Assembly (NCBI GenBank): GCA_035533755.1
Contig: DATLTC010000019.1
Span: forward strand, 1 to 64,000
Source of the DNA: Gemmatimonadaceae bacterium
GTDB taxonomy: Bacteria; Gemmatimonadota; Gemmatimonadetes; Gemmatimonadales; Gemmatimonadaceae
Length of the DNA stretch: 64,000 nt
Reading direction: 5' to 3'
Below the pieces are notes generated by a model that did no database searches, was not told the DNA's origin, and saw only the letters and a program-made list of their open reading frames with translations. Below, piece after piece: positions 10,784-30,527 of the stretch. The stretch's first letter is position 1; every line of letters starts with the position of its first letter. The translations under genes and the position numbers were made by a program.

Positions 10784-11347
10784 CTAACGCAATTCCTTTG
10801 CTAATGCAACTACCTTTTCCGTAACCTCTTGCAACGTAAGGTGTTCCGAATCTATCACCTGGTCGGCCCCTTCATATAATAGGCGACGCGCCTCGAACAA
10901 CCGCCGCATCTCCTGAGCCGGATCGGCCCGCATGAGCAGGGGCCGGAGTTCCTGCCGCTTGCCCATGCGCTTGAGCGCCGTCTCCGGCCGTACCTTGAGG
11001 TACACCATGATGCTCGGGGGCCGGAGCAGCGACACCACGTCCGGGTTGACGATCCACCCGCCGCCGGGCGCGAGAATCATCCCGCCCATCTCGCGCAGCT
11101 CCTCGGTGAGGATGCGCTCCTTGGCCCGGAAGTGATGCTCGCCCGACTCGCCGAAGATCTGCGCGATGGGCCTGCCCTCGCGGCGCTCGATCTCGGCATC
11201 GAAGTCGAGAAAGGTCCGTTCGGCGATCTCGGCGGCCCGCATGCCGACCACGGACTTCCCGGAGCCCGGGAGCCCCACGAGGATCAGGTGCGGGACCGAC
11301 GGATCAGCCGCCGAGCCGCCCTGCGATGTGCGAAAGGTAGGCGTCAT
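10784..11347 (-). CDS. aroK: Shikimate kinase
   Basis: Phosphorylates shikimate at the 3-position, the fifth step of the shikimate pathway. Walker A GLPGSGKS lies near residue 27. FLDFDAEIERREG supplies the Asp/Arg substrate contacts, and LAPGGGW is the conserved glycine loop. RQELRPLL provides the lid arginines. ATG 11347 gives 187 residues and overlaps the 3' end of aroC by 44 bases; no ATG, GTG or TTG start was found after the aroC stop that would keep the Walker strand. It acts one pathway step group before AroC in the same transcript. pilQ-aroK proximity is also seen in Proteobacteria. Confidence 0.93.
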   Translation of the reverse strand: MTPTFRTSQGGSAADPSVPHLILVGLPGSGKSVVGMRAAEIAERTFLDFDAEIERREGRPIAQIFGESGEHHFRAKERILTEELREMGGMILAPGGGWIVNPDVVSLLRPPSIMVYLKVRPETALKRMGKRQELRPLLMRADPAQEMRRLFEARRLLYEGADQVIDSEHLTLQEVTEKVVALAKELR

Positions 11348-22814: not shown

Positions 22815-23198
22815 TCAGTTACAGACCGGCTCGCCCTCGCCCGCCGTGGTCACGAGCGGGTTGGCCGTGTTCACCGCGATGGCGCAGGTGTGGCCCGACA
22901 GCTGGCTGTGGGTGACGGTAGCCGACCAGTAGCCGGCGCCCACCACGACGGCCGGCGTGTTCACGCCCGTCGACTGCTTGAAGTTGATGGCGCTCAGGTT
23001 CGTGGAGTACTTGGACGAATCCGAGAAGAAGGCCTCTTCCGCCGTCACCATGTTGCGGAGGTCCGACTTCATGGCCGTGACGTACGCCTTGGACTTAGTG
23101 TTCGCGAACTTGGGGATCGCGATCGCGGCCAGAATGCCGATGATCACGACGACGATCAGAAGCTCGATGAGCGTGAAGCCCTTGCGATTCTGCAGCAT
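22815..23198 (-). CDS. pilA: Type IV pilin (major pilin, PilA-type)
   Basis: 127-residue precursor. MLQNRKG is the leader, cut after Gly7. FTLIELLIVVVIIGILAAIAIPKF is the canonical N-terminal helix with Phe1 and Glu5 of the mature protein. The C-terminal part has two cysteines (HTCAIAV and EPVC) that can form the D-loop disulfide, and a Ser/Thr/Asn-rich middle (SDSSKYSTNLSAI). ATG 23198 has GAGG about seven bases upstream. A strong terminator follows and a sigma-54 site precedes. It is single, short and strongly bounded, as expected for an abundant major subunit. Glycosyltransferase genes lie directly upstream. Confidence 0.93.
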   Translation of the reverse strand: MLQNRKGFTLIELLIVVVIIGILAAIAIPKFANTKSKAYVTAMKSDLRNMVTAEEAFFSDSSKYSTNLSAINFKQSTGVNTPAVVVGAGYWSATVTHSQLSGHTCAIAVNTANPLVTTAGEGEPVCN

Positions 23199-23258
23199 GG
23201 TCTGCCTCAGGTGTGGTGTGTTCAGGGGGGGGATCGCGAATCTCAACGATTCCTTAAT

Positions 23259-23274
23259 GGCAATGCCGATGCCA
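23259..23274 (-). promoter_or_regulatory. Sigma-54 (RpoN) promoter of pilA
   Basis: The minus strand reads TGGCATCGGCATTGCC. Against the consensus TGGCAC-N5-TTGCW the -24 box differs only at its last base, and the -12 TTGC is perfect. GG and GC are separated by exactly 10 bases. The predicted transcript start near 23249 leaves a leader of about 50 bases with a Shine-Dalgarno before ATG 23198. PilR, a sigma-54 activator, is encoded four genes upstream. In Pseudomonas pilA is known to be PilR/RpoN-dependent. Confidence 0.8.
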
Positions 23275-23304
23275 GGTTCTGAAACCCCACTAAGACGCTC
23301 TGTA

Positions 23305-25041
23305 TCAACGAGTTGTATTTACTGCCTGCCCCTTGGCTCCAACGGGCCGTGGTGTGTTCTGCAACGACCGCCGCAATTCGCCAGAATCGGGTTTGGCGGT
23401 CTTTCGGGCGGCTTCCGCTGCCAGCGCGCTGTCGCTCCGCACGATGATCCGGTGGAGCTCGGTGATCGGACCGTGATGCTTGAGCGCCTGCAGGGCGATG
23501 ACCTTGGCGGAGTCGTACTTGCTCTCCATGTACAGGCAGTCGGCCCATTGCGGCCGGGCGACGACGATATTGCTGTCCACGGCCACGGCCCACCGATACA
23601 ACTCGATGGCGGGCTTGCAGATGCCCCAGGCGCGATAGTTCTCGGCGAAGCTGAACGCCATGAACGGATCGAACTGGAAGAGCTGCATCCCGCGGTGGTA
23701 TTCGGCCTCGCCGTCGCGCATGCGCTTGTTCTGCATGTACCAGGCGCCCAGCATGAAGTGGGCGCGGTAGCTGTCGGGCGCGTCCTTGACGGCGGTCTTG
23801 AAGAGGATGTCGTCATCGTGCCACACGCGCTGGCGCTCGGCGCTGCGCCACGCGCCGATGCCGATGAGCCCGGCGGTGACCACGGCGCCGGTCAGGGCCA
23901 GCCGCCGCGCCGAGAGCCATTCGTACACCAGCGGAATGAGCGATCCCACGAAGATGGCCACGCCCACGCTGGGAAAGAGCAGCGTGCGCTCGGCGATGAG
24001 GAACCCGGCCGGCACGACGATGTTGCTCACCGGCGACATGGCGACGATGAGCCAGCCGAGGCCGAAGCTGGCGGCGGGGATCCGCTTGCGGAGCGCGAAC
24101 GTGAGACCGATCACGCCGATCATGAGCAGAAAGCCGGGCAGTTGCGTGATGCTCACGCCCTGGGCGATCTCGATGTACGGCGGCGCGTACTCGGTGGTCA
24201 GGTGCGCGGGCCAGAGGAAGAGGCGTCCCCATTGCGGCGCCACGCCGATCATCGTGAGGATGCGATTGGTGTTGGAGAGGTGGAGTCCCTGGAAGGGCAC
24301 GAACGGATGGAACCCCTCGAAGCTGCCGGGCAGCACCACGCCCCGCGCCCACAGGAACGCGAGGGCGACGGCCGTGAGGCCGAGTACGAACGGGCGCATG
24401 GCCACCAGGCGGTCCCAGAGCGGGCGCGGATCGCGCACCACCGTCATCTCGGCCACGACCACCAGCGCCACCAGCGTGATGCCGTGCTCCTTGAACAGCA
24501 TGGCGGCCGCGTAGCAGGCGGCGATCGCGATCATGCGGCCCACGGAGAGCGGCCCGAACTGGCGACCGTACACGTAGAGCCCCATGGCCACGGTGAGCAG
24601 GAGCCCCACGGTGAGTTCCGACTGGCCGACGATGTTGCCTACGGCCTCGACGTGCAGCGGGTCGACGGCGAACAGCGCGGCGGCGATCCACGCCGGCACG
24701 GTGGGCAGCACGCCCGAGAGCACCCAGTACACCGCGACGCACATGGCGATGTAGAGCCCGACGTTCGTGGCGTGGAAGATGGCGGGGGATCCGTGCCCCA
24801 GCACCCACTGCACGGCGAAGCCGAGGATGGTGAGCGGACGGTAGCCGTCGCCGCCCCACGCCTTGGACCAGTACGAGTCGGCGAAGAAGTGCCACCAGTG
24901 CGCCAGCGAGTGCAGGCGATCGTCCCGTTGGATGACGTAGACGTCGTCGTAGGCGAACTGGTTGGCCAGCGACGTGAACGAGGCGAGGAACGAGAGCAGA
25001 CCGATGCTCGCGGCGAGCATCCACCAGGTGCGGCGTTTCAT
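23305..25041 (-). CDS. TMTC-like GT-C glycosyltransferase with C-terminal TPRs
   Basis: 578 residues with about ten membrane segments and then TPR-like repeats (about 420-540: APDSYRAHFMLGAWYMQNKRM, DPFMAFSFAENYRAWG). The first periplasmic loop has FAYDDVYVI with the Asp-Asp of GT-C enzymes, followed by WGGDGYRPLTILGFAVQW and VDPLHVEAVGNIVGQSEL, the signature blocks of TMTC/DUF1736 proteins. In animals TMTC1-4 are O-mannosyltransferases for cadherins (GT105). It presumably moves sugar from polyprenyl phosphate to a periplasmic protein acceptor. The 5' end overlaps the GT2 gene by four bases, and the next gene downstream is pilA, so pilin is a natural candidate acceptor (inference). Confidence 0.82.
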   Translation of the reverse strand: MKRRTWWMLAASIGLLSFLASFTSLANQFAYDDVYVIQRDDRLHSLAHWWHFFADSYWSKAWGGDGYRPLTILGFAVQWVLGHGSPAIFHATNVGLYIAMCVAVYWVLSGVLPTVPAWIAAALFAVDPLHVEAVGNIVGQSELTVGLLLTVAMGLYVYGRQFGPLSVGRMIAIAACYAAAMLFKEHGITLVALVVVAEMTVVRDPRPLWDRLVAMRPFVLGLTAVALAFLWARGVVLPGSFEGFHPFVPFQGLHLSNTNRILTMIGVAPQWGRLFLWPAHLTTEYAPPYIEIAQGVSITQLPGFLLMIGVIGLTFALRKRIPAASFGLGWLIVAMSPVSNIVVPAGFLIAERTLLFPSVGVAIFVGSLIPLVYEWLSARRLALTGAVVTAGLIGIGAWRSAERQRVWHDDDILFKTAVKDAPDSYRAHFMLGAWYMQNKRMRDGEAEYHRGMQLFQFDPFMAFSFAENYRAWGICKPAIELYRWAVAVDSNIVVARPQWADCLYMESKYDSAKVIALQALKHHGPITELHRIIVRSDSALAAEAARKTAKPDSGELRRSLQNTPRPVGAKGQAVNTTR

Positions 25042-25826
25042 TCGAACAGGTTGTATTTGAGGATGTGCCAGAACGCGGCGACGCCGTCCTTCCAGTTGAT
25101 CTTCTTGCCTTCGGCGTAGGTGCGGCCGGAATAGCTGATCGGCACTTCGAAGATGCGGGCCTTGGCATGGGCGAGGCGGGCGGTGACTTCGGGCTCGAAC
25201 CCGAACCGGTTGGCGGTGAGCCGCAGCGAGCGCGCCAGGTCACCGCGCATGGCTTTGTAGCAGGTCTCCATGTCGGTGAGGTTGAGGTTGGTGAGCATGT
25301 TGCTGAACGTGGTGAGCATGCGGTTGCCCACGGAGTGCCAGTAGTACAGCACGCGGTGGGGGCCGCCGAGGAACCGCGAGCCGAACGACGCGTCGGCGCG
25401 CCCGTCGATGATCGGGGCGAGCAGCACCGGCCAATCGGACGGGTGGTATTCGAGGTCGGCGTCCTGCACGATCACCACGTGCCCGGTGCTGGCGGCGAGC
25501 GCGGTGCGGATGGCGGCGCCCTTACCCATGTTGTGCGGCTGCAGGATCAGCCGGTCGATGCGGCCTTCCGCGTGCAGCTGCTGGAGCCGTTCGCGGGTGC
25601 CGTCGGTGGAGTAGTCGTCCACGCAGACGATCTCCTTGGGCAGGGGCGTGGCGTGCACCCGGTCGAGGATCGTCTCGATGGTGTTCAGTTCGTTGTACAC
25701 GGGGATGAGCACCGACAGGCGCCAGGCATTCATGTCGAGCGGCGTGAGCGGCGTTCGGCGGGCGGCGGGGCTCAGCCCTCCCGGGACGCGGGATCCGGTG
25801 GGCACGTCGGGGACGGACATCGTCAT
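25038..25826 (-). CDS. GT2 polyprenyl-phosphate sugar synthase (DPM1-like)
   Basis: 262 residues, soluble. LSVLIPVYNELNTIETIL opens the GT-A fold. EIVCVDDYSTDGTRE and QDADLEYHP (DxD at 122-124) bind nucleotide sugar and metal, and FGSRFLGG and GRTYAEGKKINWKDG are typical of the dolichyl/polyprenyl-phosphate mannose or glucose synthase group. No C-terminal membrane pair is present, as in DPM1-type enzymes. It probably charges undecaprenyl phosphate with one hexose for the GT-C enzymes encoded on both sides. It overlaps both neighbours by four bases. The first about 30 residues are low in conservation; Met32 (MNAWRLSVL) could be the true start. Confidence 0.88.
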   Translation of the reverse strand: MTMSVPDVPTGSRVPGGLSPAARRTPLTPLDMNAWRLSVLIPVYNELNTIETILDRVHATPLPKEIVCVDDYSTDGTRERLQQLHAEGRIDRLILQPHNMGKGAAIRTALAASTGHVVIVQDADLEYHPSDWPVLLAPIIDGRADASFGSRFLGGPHRVLYYWHSVGNRMLTTFSNMLTNLNLTDMETCYKAMRGDLARSLRLTANRFGFEPEVTARLAHAKARIFEVPISYSGRTYAEGKKINWKDGVAAFWHILKYNLFE

Positions 25827-27430
25827 CTCGGGATCGGGGAATAGACCAGTCCGCCGGGAAAGCTGTCCCGCAGGGCAAGCTCGGGCGGGTGTTGCGCGAC
25901 CAGCGTCTGCGCGATGTCGCGCTGATCGGACGTCGTCACCACGACGTCGTCAATGGCGTACGCCGCCAGGATCGCCCGCAGCATGCCGGCGCCCTCGGTG
26001 ATCGTGGGCGGGTGCGAGAAATCCGTGGCGCTGAACGAGTAGAACGGGACCGCAGGGTGGCCGGTGTACAGGTAGATCGCCGCATCGTCCTCGGCGGATA
26101 GCGTCGCGGTGGGCGTGGCGTATTCCTTCACTCCCAAGACCACGGCACGCAGCGTTGCGCCACGCTGGCGCGGAATATTGGCCCACCAGCTGCCGCGATA
26201 CCCCTTCACGGTATACACCGTGTACCCCATGGCCGGCAGCGCGGCCACCGCGAGGACGCAGGCGCGCAGCACCCGCGCCCCGCGCCCTGCGGGGCACCAC
26301 CGCCAGAGGGCCACGACGCCGAGCAGGGGCAGGGCGAGCAGCAGCGGCCAGATGCCCCACAGAAACCGCGCCGGCGCGTACGGCCACACCAGCACAATCG
26401 CGACATAGAACCCGAGAAAGAGCGCGCTCACGCGGGCCGCGCGCCACATGCGCCATGCGCCGGCGGCGGCGAGCGCGAGCAGGGCGCCGAGCGCCAGGGG
26501 CACGACGGCGCGCGGCGCCGATGGGGCCGCCAGCGTGGCGAGCAACGCGGCCACCTGGCCCACGGTGCCGCGCACGGTCCCGGCCACGAACGCGGCACCG
26601 CCAAGGCGCCAGCCGTCGGCCAGCCAGGCGCCGTACGGTCCGTAGGTGCCCCGGATGGGTGCCGGCACGGCGGTGGCGTTCATGTGCACCCACCACTGCC
26701 AGGGCAGCATGACGAGAAGGGCGGCGCTGCCCGCCAGCAGTGCGTCGCGCACGCGGCGGCGCGCGAGCAGGGCCATCACCACGGCCGCCACCAGCGCCAG
26801 GCCAAGCCCGCGCACGAGGGTGAGCGCGCCCGCGAGCAGTCCGGCGAACGCGGCCAGGCGCGCATCAGCGGCGGCGGGGCCGCGTCCGTCCACCGCCCGT
26901 TCGGCCACGAGCAGCACCGGCACGAGCAGCGCCAGGAAGAGGGGCTCCGACATCACGAGCGCGCTCAGCACGAGCATCGGCACGGCGGCTGCCGAGACCA
27001 CCGCGAACACGCTCGCGGCCATCGGCGAGCAGTCGAACCGCCGGCGCGCCCACTGCGCCACGCCCACGGCCACCAGGGCCACGAGCAGCGCGTTGACGAG
27101 CTTGAACAGCAGCACGTTGGCGGGAAACGTGGGCGCCATGCGCCAGAGCAGCGCGATCAGGGCCGGGTAGCCCGGCGGGAAGTGCGTGGCCGCGGGCGCG
27201 CCGGGAAGATTCAGATACCGGTATCCCTGCCCCGTGGCGAGCGCCTTGCCGAGCACCACGTACACCGCTTCGTCGGGCACCGCGCCCACCGGAAACGGGT
27301 TGACGGCGCGCGCCGCCAGCACGAGCACGATCACCGGCGCCAGCCAGCCAGTGAGGCGCACCAGCCCCGCCGGCCAGCCGAGCGCCGCGGACGCAGGCGA
27401 CGGTTCCACCTCCTCGGCCCCCGCGGTCAC
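25823..27430 (-). CDS. ArnT/PMT-like (GT39-type) membrane glycosyltransferase
   Basis: 535 residues with roughly ten to twelve membrane helices. VPDEAVYVVLGKALATGQG carries the acidic catalytic loop of GT-C enzymes, and THFPPGYPALIALLW is the typical following motif. It probably transfers a sugar from a polyprenyl-phosphate carrier on the periplasmic side. GTG 27430 overlaps the pilR stop by four bases (GTGA), which decides this start over one 35 codons upstream. It is translationally coupled to pilR before it and the GT2 gene after it. Confidence 0.83.
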   Translation of the reverse strand: MTAGAEEVEPSPASAALGWPAGLVRLTGWLAPVIVLVLAARAVNPFPVGAVPDEAVYVVLGKALATGQGYRYLNLPGAPAATHFPPGYPALIALLWRMAPTFPANVLLFKLVNALLVALVAVGVAQWARRRFDCSPMAASVFAVVSAAAVPMLVLSALVMSEPLFLALLVPVLLVAERAVDGRGPAAADARLAAFAGLLAGALTLVRGLGLALVAAVVMALLARRRVRDALLAGSAALLVMLPWQWWVHMNATAVPAPIRGTYGPYGAWLADGWRLGGAAFVAGTVRGTVGQVAALLATLAAPSAPRAVVPLALGALLALAAAGAWRMWRAARVSALFLGFYVAIVLVWPYAPARFLWGIWPLLLALPLLGVVALWRWCPAGRGARVLRACVLAVAALPAMGYTVYTVKGYRGSWWANIPRQRGATLRAVVLGVKEYATPTATLSAEDDAAIYLYTGHPAVPFYSFSATDFSHPPTITEGAGMLRAILAAYAIDDVVVTTSDQRDIAQTLVAQHPPELALRDSFPGGLVYSPIPR

Positions 27431-28809
27431 ACCTCGACCCCGTACCGGGAGAGCTTCCGATAGAGCGTGGACGGATCGATGCCCAGGGCCTCGGCGGCGC
27501 GCGACTTGTTGCCGCCTTCCGTCTGGAGCACCCACATGATGTACGCCCGCTCCACGGCCTCGAGCGTGGGATTGGCCGGCGTGCGCGACGCCACCAGCGG
27601 CTCGGCGTTGCGTTGCGTGACCCGCTCGGGCAACCCGCTCACGCCGATCGTCTCGCCGGTGGTGAGGATGGCGGCGCGCTCCAGCGCGTTCTCCAACTCG
27701 CGCACGTTGCCGGGCCAGGCGTACCCCTGCGCCACCTCGAGGGCATCGGCGTCGAGATGCTTGGGCGCCTCGCCGCGAGCCTGCGCGATGCGCTGCAGGA
27801 AGTGATCCACGAGCAGTGGGATGTCGTCCCGGCGCTGGCGCAGCGGCGGCAGATGGAAGAGGATCACGTTGAGCCGGTAGTACAGGTCGCTGCGGAACCG
27901 CCCCACCTTGATCTCCTCCTCGAGATCGCGATTGGTGGCGGCGATCAGCCGCACATCGATCGGCTCGGCGTCGGTGGCGCCCACGGGGATCACCTCGCGG
28001 TGCTGCAGCACGCGCAGCAGCTTGACCTGCGTGGCCGGCGTGGTCTCGCCGATCTCGTCGAGAAAGAACGTGCCCCGGGCGGCGGCGGCGAACAGCCCCG
28101 ACTTGTCCTTCACGGCGCCCGTGAACGATCCCTTCACGTGGCCGAACAGTTCGCTCTCGAGCAGGCTCTCGGGCAACGCCCCGCAGTTGATGGACAGGAA
28201 CGGCCCGCCGGTGCGCGTGGACAGCTCATGGATGTACCGCGCCACGACTTCCTTGCCCGTGCCCGACTCGCCCTGGATCAACACCGTGCTCTCGGTGGGC
28301 GCCACCGTCTCGGCCAACTGCAGCACTTCGATCCACGGCTTGCTGTTGCCCACCGGGCGGTCACCATGATGGCGATCGCGTCGCTTGATCTCCTGCTTGA
28401 GCGACTTGTTCTCCACGCGCAGCTGCCGGTGCTCGGCGGCGCGCTTGAGGATGGCGATCAACTCGTCGTTGCGGAACGGCTTCTGGATGTAATAGAAGGC
28501 GCCCTCGTTCACCGCCTGCATGGCCGACTGCAGCGTGGCCTGGGCCGTCATCAGGATCACGGGCACGTCGGGGTCGTTCTGCCGCGCCGCGGCGAGGATC
28601 TCGACGCCGGTGGCCCCGGGCATGCGGATGTCGGTGAGGACGATGTCCGGCGACATCGCGGCCAGCATCTCGAGGCCCTTGTTGCCGCCGAGCGCGAGGT
28701 GCGGTTCGAATCCCTCGTGGCGCAGCAGGATGCGCAGCGACTCGAGGATGCCGGCTTCGTCGTCCACGACGAGGACGTTGGGGGGATGCTCCACGACTCT
28801 GGTGCTCAC
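27427..28809 (-). CDS. pilR: Sigma-54-dependent response regulator PilR
   Basis: 460 residues. The receiver domain (about 11-125) has phospho-acceptor Asp60 (VLTDIRMPG) and Lys110. The AAA+ domain (about 150-380) has Walker A GESGTGKE 180-187, the sigma-54-contact loop GSFTGA 227-232 and Walker B FFLDEIGE. A Fis-type helix-turn-helix follows at about 420-458 (NKSRAAEALGIDPSTLYRKLSRYG). GSFTGA rather than GAFTGA is, to my knowledge, also found in PilR of Pseudomonas. GTG 28809 overlaps pilS by four bases. Its likely targets are the -24/-12 sites upstream of pilA and the minor pilin genes. Confidence 0.9.
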   Translation of the reverse strand: MSTRVVEHPPNVLVVDDEAGILESLRILLRHEGFEPHLALGGNKGLEMLAAMSPDIVLTDIRMPGATGVEILAAARQNDPDVPVILMTAQATLQSAMQAVNEGAFYYIQKPFRNDELIAILKRAAEHRQLRVENKSLKQEIKRRDRHHGDRPVGNSKPWIEVLQLAETVAPTESTVLIQGESGTGKEVVARYIHELSTRTGGPFLSINCGALPESLLESELFGHVKGSFTGAVKDKSGLFAAAARGTFFLDEIGETTPATQVKLLRVLQHREVIPVGATDAEPIDVRLIAATNRDLEEEIKVGRFRSDLYYRLNVILFHLPPLRQRRDDIPLLVDHFLQRIAQARGEAPKHLDADALEVAQGYAWPGNVRELENALERAAILTTGETIGVSGLPERVTQRNAEPLVASRTPANPTLEAVERAYIMWVLQTEGGNKSRAAEALGIDPSTLYRKLSRYGVEV

Positions 28810-30527
28810 GCGGTGTCTCCGGAAGCGGTCTGGGTGCGCGGCAGGATCACGGTGAACGTGGTGCCGCGCGGCCCGCTGTCGAGGAACACCATGCCGCGAT
28901 GCGCCTCGATCGCCCGGTGCACGACGGCCAGACCGAGGCCGCTCCCGCCGGGCTTGGTGGTGAAGAAGGGATCGAACAGGCGGTCGCGGATCTCGAGCGG
29001 AATGCCCGGTCCCTCGTCGCTCACCCGCACCGATACGCTGCCCGCCTCGTAGCGCACGCCCAGCGGGAGCTGGTCGGGACTCATCGCCGTCGCCTCGATC
29101 TTCACCACGCCCCCCTCGGGCGAGGCCTGAATGGCGTTCAGCAGCAGATTGAAGATCGCGCGGTGCAGGAGATCCTCGTCGCCTTGCACCGACAGGTCGT
29201 CGTCCTCGGGCACCACGCACACCACGCGGTTGCGCCCCTGTTCCTCGGGATGGGCTTCGGCCAGCCGCGCCGCGCCGCGCACCATGTCGGCCAGCTTCAC
29301 GTCGCCGGTGCGCGCCACGCGCACGCGCGCGAAGTCCAGGAACTCGGTGAGCAGGCGGGACAGGCGGTCGGACTCGCGCAGCACGAGCCGGCTGAGCGTC
29401 TGCCCGTCCTCCGATTCCTGCGGCATGCCGGCCAGCTGCTCCACGGCGCTCCGGATGGACGCCAGCGGATTCTTGATCTCGTGGGCCAGCGACGCGCTCA
29501 GTTCGGCAACGCCTTCGAGGCGTTCGGCGCGCAGGCGCAGCGTCTCGAGGCGCTTCTGGTCGGAGATGTCCTGGAAGATCGCCGTCGCCGTGCGATCGGT
29601 GCGCAGCCCGTCGCCTTCGGTATAGGTGGTGGTCACGCCGATCGGGAACCGCTTGGACGCCGTGGTCACGATTCCTTCGGCCCGCGTGGTGCGGATGCGG
29701 TCGGCCACCGACCGTCGCAGTGCCTGAGCCAACTCGGGGGCCGCGGCCGCGATGCGGTCGAGCACTGGCTCGCCCAGCGCCGTGTCGAAGGGCACGCCGA
29801 GCAGCCCCTGCGCCTTGGGGTTGGCGTACAGCAGGTGGCCGCTCGAATCGATGGTCAACACGCCGCTCTGGATGTTCCGCAGGATGTCGGCGGCCTGCAA
29901 TCGCGCGTGCTCCAGGGCCGCGACCAGGATCTCCTTGCCCTCGCCGGCCTTCTGCAGTTGCGAGGCGAGAATGGCGCTGCCCACCGAGACCGCGGCGAAC
30001 ACGCCCAACTGCGCCCACACGATGCCGCTGTGCATGACCACGTTCACGCCGAACACCGTGTCGGCAAAGAACAGCACGATGCCCAGGGCCGCCACGAGCA
30101 GCCCGCCGCCCACCGGGAGCATGAGCGTGGCCGCGGCGATGACCAGGATGTACAGGGCCGAGAACTGTGAGACGCCGCCCGATTCACCCACCCCGGGCGT
30201 CACGTGCACCACCACCGTCACCAACAGCAGATCGATGATGCTCTGGACGTAGAGAAACGTTTTGCCGAGCGGCTTTCGGTATATTTCGCTGTACACGAAC
30301 GACGCTAGCGTGAAGACGGTGACCAGCGCGAAGGTGACCGTGACCACCGTGAGCTTGCTGGCATCCGTTTCCTGCGTGGCCCAGTTCACCACGCCGGCGA
30401 TGAAGATCGCGCTGGCCACCGAGAACCGAACCAGATAGACCCACCGCAGCAGATAGCGTGGGTCGAGCATGGCCTGGAGCGGCGCGGGTTCAACTCTGGA
30501 TGGGGAGCGCACAGGAGTTTGGTTCAT
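28806..30527 (-). CDS. pilS: Sensor histidine kinase PilS
   Basis: 573 residues from ATG 30527 (a TTG four codons upstream is possible). Five or six membrane helices lie within about 25-190, as in PilS. A PAS domain (about 210-325, IQSGVLTIDSSGHLLYANPKA) is followed by a HisKA domain with phospho-acceptor His349 in SLAHEIKNPLASI, and a HATPase domain (NLLLNAIQ, DEGPGIP, GGSGLGLAVV). In Pseudomonas PilS senses pilin in the membrane and controls PilR. It is the first gene of the five-gene operon pilS-pilR-GT39-GT2-TMTC. The leader upstream is AT-rich for this genome. Confidence 0.88.
   Translation of the reverse strand: MNQTPVRSPSRVEPAPLQAMLDPRYLLRWVYLVRFSVASAIFIAGVVNWATQETDASKLTVVTVTFALVTVFTLASFVYSEIYRKPLGKTFLYVQSIIDLLLVTVVVHVTPGVGESGGVSQFSALYILVIAAATLMLPVGGGLLVAALGIVLFFADTVFGVNVVMHSGIVWAQLGVFAAVSVGSAILASQLQKAGEGKEILVAALEHARLQAADILRNIQSGVLTIDSSGHLLYANPKAQGLLGVPFDTALGEPVLDRIAAAAPELAQALRRSVADRIRTTRAEGIVTTASKRFPIGVTTTYTEGDGLRTDRTATAIFQDISDQKRLETLRLRAERLEGVAELSASLAHEIKNPLASIRSAVEQLAGMPQESEDGQTLSRLVLRESDRLSRLLTEFLDFARVRVARTGDVKLADMVRGAARLAEAHPEEQGRNRVVCVVPEDDDLSVQGDEDLLHRAIFNLLLNAIQASPEGGVVKIEATAMSPDQLPLGVRYEAGSVSVRVSDEGPGIPLEIRDRLFDPFFTTKPGGSGLGLAVVHRAIEAHRGMVFLDSGPRGTTFTVILPRTQTASGDTA

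Follow-up and report, generated by a model that had tools for sequence, protein, structure and literature searches.

A probable three-part sigma-54 promoter, with a palindromic IHF-like element, upstream of pilA in a Gemmatimonadaceae bacterium

The pilA gene in the 64-kb stretch of Gemmatimonadaceae DNA analysed here (the window) probably has a three-part promoter, in which PilR would bind an upstream element (B), a homodimer of an IHF-like protein would bend a palindromic element (A), and sigma-54 polymerase would use a -24/-12 core. The mechanism we propose, on the strength of sequence comparison, is as follows: PilS would control PilR, which would bind the dyad-containing enhancer B at roughly -106 to -135 relative to the transcription start; the IHF-beta-like protein, of which the genome encodes one, would bind A as a homodimer at about -41 to -70; and the bend at A would let PilR contact the sigma-54 holoenzyme at TGGCATCGGCATTGCC and open the promoter, so that pilA mRNA would be made from about position 23248. 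Element A, spaced in phase with the helix, is probably a common part of Gemmatimonadota sigma-54 promoters, and the enhancer upstream of it would then set which activator responds. We are evenly divided on the broadest form of this idea, namely that most sigma-54 promoters of the phylum carry a third element, a palindromic double IHF core set at either of two helically equivalent distances from -24, where a universal IHF-beta-like homodimer provides built-in bending.

The pilA gene (22815..23198, minus strand) encodes a 127-aa type IV pilin with an N_methyl domain and a GFTLIELL start. The predicted core, TGGCATCGGCATTGCC, was found on the same strand at 23259..23274 (read from 23274 to 23259), and its end is 60 nt from the pilA start codon at 23198. 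Its GG-N10-GC frame is exact and it agrees with TGGCACG-N4-TTGCW at 9 of 12 informative positions, the mismatches being at positions 6, 7 and 16; the spacing given in the original prediction thus stands, while its statement that the consensus is matched in nearly every position was too strong. The transcription start predicted from the position of the -12 GC is near 23248 (minus strand), which would give a 50-nt leader containing a TGAGG Shine-Dalgarno sequence at 23205..23209.

The genome has a single rpoN gene (G000:C9:268948-270402; 427 bits, over the cut-off), which excludes the absence of rpoN as an objection to the prediction; since rpoN is present in 248 of 249 Gemmatimonadota genomes, its co-occurrence with the site is uninformative and was not used as a test. 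Strong sigma-54 activator domains number nine in this genome. One of the activators is PilR, whose gene (27427..28806, minus; Sigma54_activat, Response_reg and HTH_8 domains) lies with pilS upstream of pilA on the same strand and inside the window. PilR has the receiver-AAA+-Fis type of architecture and, as had been claimed, a sigma-54 loop, GSFTGA, the commonest form at related loci (77 of 85 loops); its closest relatives nearly all carry Gemmatimonadota or Gemmatimonadaceae labels. The adjoining partner gene pilS (28806..30527, minus, start codon uncertain) encodes a membrane sensor kinase with a 6TM_PilS match. The pilR-pilA interval (23305-27535) holds two large membrane-protein genes without family match and a GT2 glycosyltransferase gene, possibly a set for pilin or surface glycosylation.

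Motif discovery in 82 non-redundant pilA upstreams aligned on the sigma-54 site returned elements A and B with log-likelihoods of 508 and 503, respectively, against about 90 and 115 for shuffles. The A consensus is cGTAAgT.gTTG....gCAA.GagTTA and begins 44–45 nt before the TGG, counted upstream from its T. In the window, a model trained with the genome's own genus left out places A (ATACAACTCGTTGATACAGAGCGTCTTAGT; 23289..23318, minus) at -44 on the same count from that T, with 15.9 bits, when the best of 46,602 control positions reaches 8.6, and the same model finds A at -43 to -45 in eight of nine own-genus promoters, the ninth being without it. The element is strikingly symmetric: its matrix, derived with no symmetry constraint, correlates with its own reverse complement at 0.918 (the next best alignment gives 0.22), and its form YAANNNNTTG-N5-CAANNNNTTR amounts to a pair of IHF cores (consensus WATCARNNNNTTR, PMC8421141) in inverted orientation. 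The window's A contains a perfect reverse core, CAACTCGTTGATA, at 23315-23303, between B and the promoter. A is separated from the -24 element by 42–47 bp, or by 54–55 bp in many flagellar promoters, with almost no intermediate values, and the two spacings differ by one helical turn. Of 50 strong A sites in 1.0 Mb of loci, 44 are paired with a sigma-54 site at this spacing, a share enriched for pilA promoters because the loci are centred on pilR.

What might read such a site? The genome, like most of its family, has one HU/IHF-family gene only, and an IHF alpha/beta heterodimer is not encoded in it. The protein falls below the curated cut-offs for both IHF-alpha and IHF-beta, so we do not class it as IHF, and at most it works like IHF. 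Its near-invariant sequence is nearer to IHF-beta than to HU, with the motifs FKPSKELR and IEVRGFG, the latter in place of the IHF-beta IEIRGFG. Arg46 of IHF-beta lies in this stretch. In IHF, Arg46 of the beta subunit inserts into the minor groove (PMC8421141). A homodimer of this IHF-beta-like protein could read both halves of A alike, which would explain the symmetry of A.

The strongest competing explanation is that A is a general sigma-54 co-activator site read by some other dimeric DNA-binding protein or by the polymerase alpha C-terminal domains. The dyad and its very rigid spacing would suit any dimer that contacts polymerase, and the position of A overlaps the place where UP elements lie. 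We nevertheless consider this explanation unlikely, though a serious competitor, for both halves of A match the IHF core, A occupies the classical IHF place, and the sole HU/IHF protein resembles IHF-beta and has to pair with itself. The reading we prefer is that the IHF-like homodimer bends A.

Element A is found well outside pilA. It precedes 24 of 27 flgF-type flagellar genes found by homology (in-gene control 0, shuffles 1–3%) and 16 of 30 efflux-adaptor genes found by protein homology, the latter with a palindromic enhancer unlike B and often with TTCC as the -12 sequence. A profile of A plus the sigma-54 site finds sites in 38 of 39 genomes of the family; in another Gemmatimonadota family, which was absent from its training, 32 of 38 genomes have them. 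Its top three matches in the window's own genome are pilA copies, all three of which belonged to the training set, and further matches there are weak (E of at least 0.1) and were left uncounted. Two of these weak matches, near other activator genes, look plausible. No flgF match was found in the window's own genome. Among the flgF-type promoters (L253-L279), CGGCAG-N3-CTGCCG-like enhancer dyads lie upstream of A, and MacA-like adaptor genes beside a sigma-54 activator gene (L163-L190) show the enhancer TGTCCG..GGGAC...GTCCC..CGGACA, then A, then a -12 in which TTCC replaces TTGC.

Element B behaves differently from A. Its consensus, T.GCAaaCTGC.AGa...CttGCAAAACgC, begins near -110, and in the window the model without the own genus places it (TGGCGAATTGCGGCGGTCGTTGCAGAACAC; 23354..23383, minus) at -109 with 20.7 bits against a control maximum of 13.2; it is weak at three of the nine own-genus promoters. 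It combines a GCA-N3-TGC dyad with TTGCA and lies within the 3′ end of the preceding gene, a membrane-protein gene without family match (23305..25041, minus) whose stop codon is in A. B is missing from the flagellar and almost all of the efflux-adaptor promoters, and of 40 matches to the A plus sigma-54 profile those linked to pilA mostly have B and those at flagellar and other genes lack it. B is therefore pilA-specific, and because it is confined to pilA promoters it is likely the PilR enhancer; the earlier suggestion to scan for PilR sites 50–150 bases upstream thus led to an element in that interval. A, which stands before flagellar and adaptor genes with other enhancers and without B, is a general sigma-54 promoter element, not specific to PilR; it was absent from the original prediction and is the less expected of the findings here. 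Both this distribution and the recovery of A and B in the held-out genus support the three-part promoter.

The same distribution bears on a second alternative, in which a PilR dimer would bind A and some other regulator would use B. In its favour, sigma-54 activators bind dyads, and A is a clean one that lies upstream of the promoter by a constant distance; however, A also precedes flagellar and adaptor genes that have palindromic enhancers of their own, B is confined to pilA, and A is nearer the promoter than enhancers usually are. Because A is found at promoters with other enhancers, we rejected it as the PilR site, and we regard this alternative as quite improbable.

We return to the core. 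As a bare 16-mer string, TGGCATCGGCATTGCC is not above chance, because 14 places in the window (its own included) score equal or higher by an ad hoc weighted consensus score. The pattern TGGCA-N6-TTGC occurs once in the window and ten times in the 3.25-Mb genome, compared with 16 for a control pattern read backwards, and two of the ten copies sit 60–70 nt ahead of pilA copies. The significance of the site comes instead from its position and its conservation among pilA upstreams. We compared 127 distinct pilA upstreams drawn from 250 Gemmatimonadota genomes plus 80 PilR loci, and 51 of them have a GG-N10-GC site of at least 10/12 in their final 150 nt, against none on the reverse strand, 0 of 125 at 151–300 nt, none in coding sequence and about one in shuffles. 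At the 9/12 level, that of TGGCATCGGCATTGCC itself, the count is 76, against 11 on the reverse strand, one at 151–300 nt, one in coding sequence and about five in shuffles. Nearly all sites of at least 8/12 end 34–97 nt ahead of the pilA start codon. These counts cover sequences related by descent and so are partly non-independent; the effect of kinship was reduced by de-duplication, the own-genus hold-out, comparison of paralogs and the use of other gene families. Since the site is conserved in many pilA upstreams with clean controls, TGGCATCGGCATTGCC appears to be the -24/-12 core of a genuine sigma-54 (RpoN) pilA promoter. That the 16-mer is a chance match and the pilA promoter lies elsewhere, as the equal scores and the unremarkable genome count might suggest, is hardly credible given this conservation of position and sequence and the fact that the held-out model puts A and B at the expected distances from it.

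Paralogs within the genome give a further view of the promoter. There are six pilA-like genes, five of which have a sigma-54 site scoring 8–10/12. The window's copy (C19) and the one on C71 are 95.8% identical in coding DNA, and the identity of their upstream 200 nt is about that of shuffled sequence; both upstreams nonetheless retain the sigma-54 element and element A. This retention in C71 despite its diverged upstream also supports the three-part promoter. More widely, dispersed pilA copies (C19, C71, C37 and C62 of this genome; L032, L033, L034) have near-identical coding DNA and unrelated upstream DNA, most have a sigma-54 promoter of their own, and many copies are also present in related genomes, which suggests gene conversion or a cassette-like spread of the pilin.

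Control of pilA by PilS/PilR and RpoN is known in Pseudomonas aeruginosa (PMC6058289), Geobacter sulfurreducens (PMC2725144) and Myxococcus xanthus (PMC6211767). The original prediction saw here the extension of Pseudomonas-type control to a distant phylum; one more phylum is indeed added, but such control had already been described beyond Pseudomonas, in Geobacter and Myxococcus. In a search of largely open-access papers we found none tying PilR/RpoN pilin control to Gemmatimonadota, and the sigma-54 survey of Francke et al. (PMC3162934), which covers Gemmatimonas, does not mention pilA or PilR. The present locus shares with the pilA systems of the three species a sigma-54 promoter, an upstream enhancer and PilS/PilR near upstream on the same strand. 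It differs from them in that its enhancer is of the TTGCA/GCA-N3-TGC type, a palindromic IHF-like element holds a set place between that enhancer and the promoter, and there are several dispersed pilA copies, five of six with a promoter. The closest likeness to B that we noted is the M. xanthus NmpR enhancer GCGCA-N5-TGCGC (PMC11841059), also a GCA...TGC dyad for an NtrC-like regulator within an upstream gene; its spacer, however, is 5 rather than 3, and it acts on pilR and on genes for oxygen use, with no direct control of pilA.

IHF sites between an enhancer and a sigma-54 promoter are likewise known elsewhere (PMC7962754, PMC3897727). As in the Desulfovibrio vulgaris orp (PMC3897727) and Geobacter (PMC7962754) systems, where expression falls without IHF and PilA is lost from ihf mutants of G. 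sulfurreducens (PMC7962754), the IHF-type site here lies between enhancer and -24. The known IHF-assisted promoters, however, have single asymmetric cores at varying places and an alpha/beta heterodimer, whereas here two inverted cores stand at one or the other of two helically equivalent spacings, and there is just one IHF-like gene. A symmetric, phase-locked IHF site across different regulons of one phylum appears to be new. Sigma-54 promoters are described as a pair of boxes with a variable enhancer, IHF being an optional helper, and a fixed, phased, symmetric bending site over several regulons offers a natural way to probe the construction of enhancer loops. The symmetry of A also suggests how a single-subunit IHF-like protein can work, and the element eases prediction of sigma-54 regulons in a phylum with few cultures.

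Some smaller observations concern A-like sequences and the pilA leader. The matrix of A on its own can match unrelated places: a hit of 22.3 bits at window position 10819, within the 3′ end of a gene that resembles shikimate kinase, has no sigma-54 site, and we treated it as chance; the stretch around it (10804-10849) is AT-rich with overlapping A-like repeats of up to 22.3 bits. A strong A-like palindrome without a sigma-54 site also lies directly 3′ of a tRNA-Met gene (L158 3232-3261, G000:C22), and is perhaps an attachment-type or other IHF-like site. The pilA 5′ leader carries a run of eight C (23225-23232), which could have a slippage or translation effect, and the leaders of relatives are likewise rich in C and poor in G.
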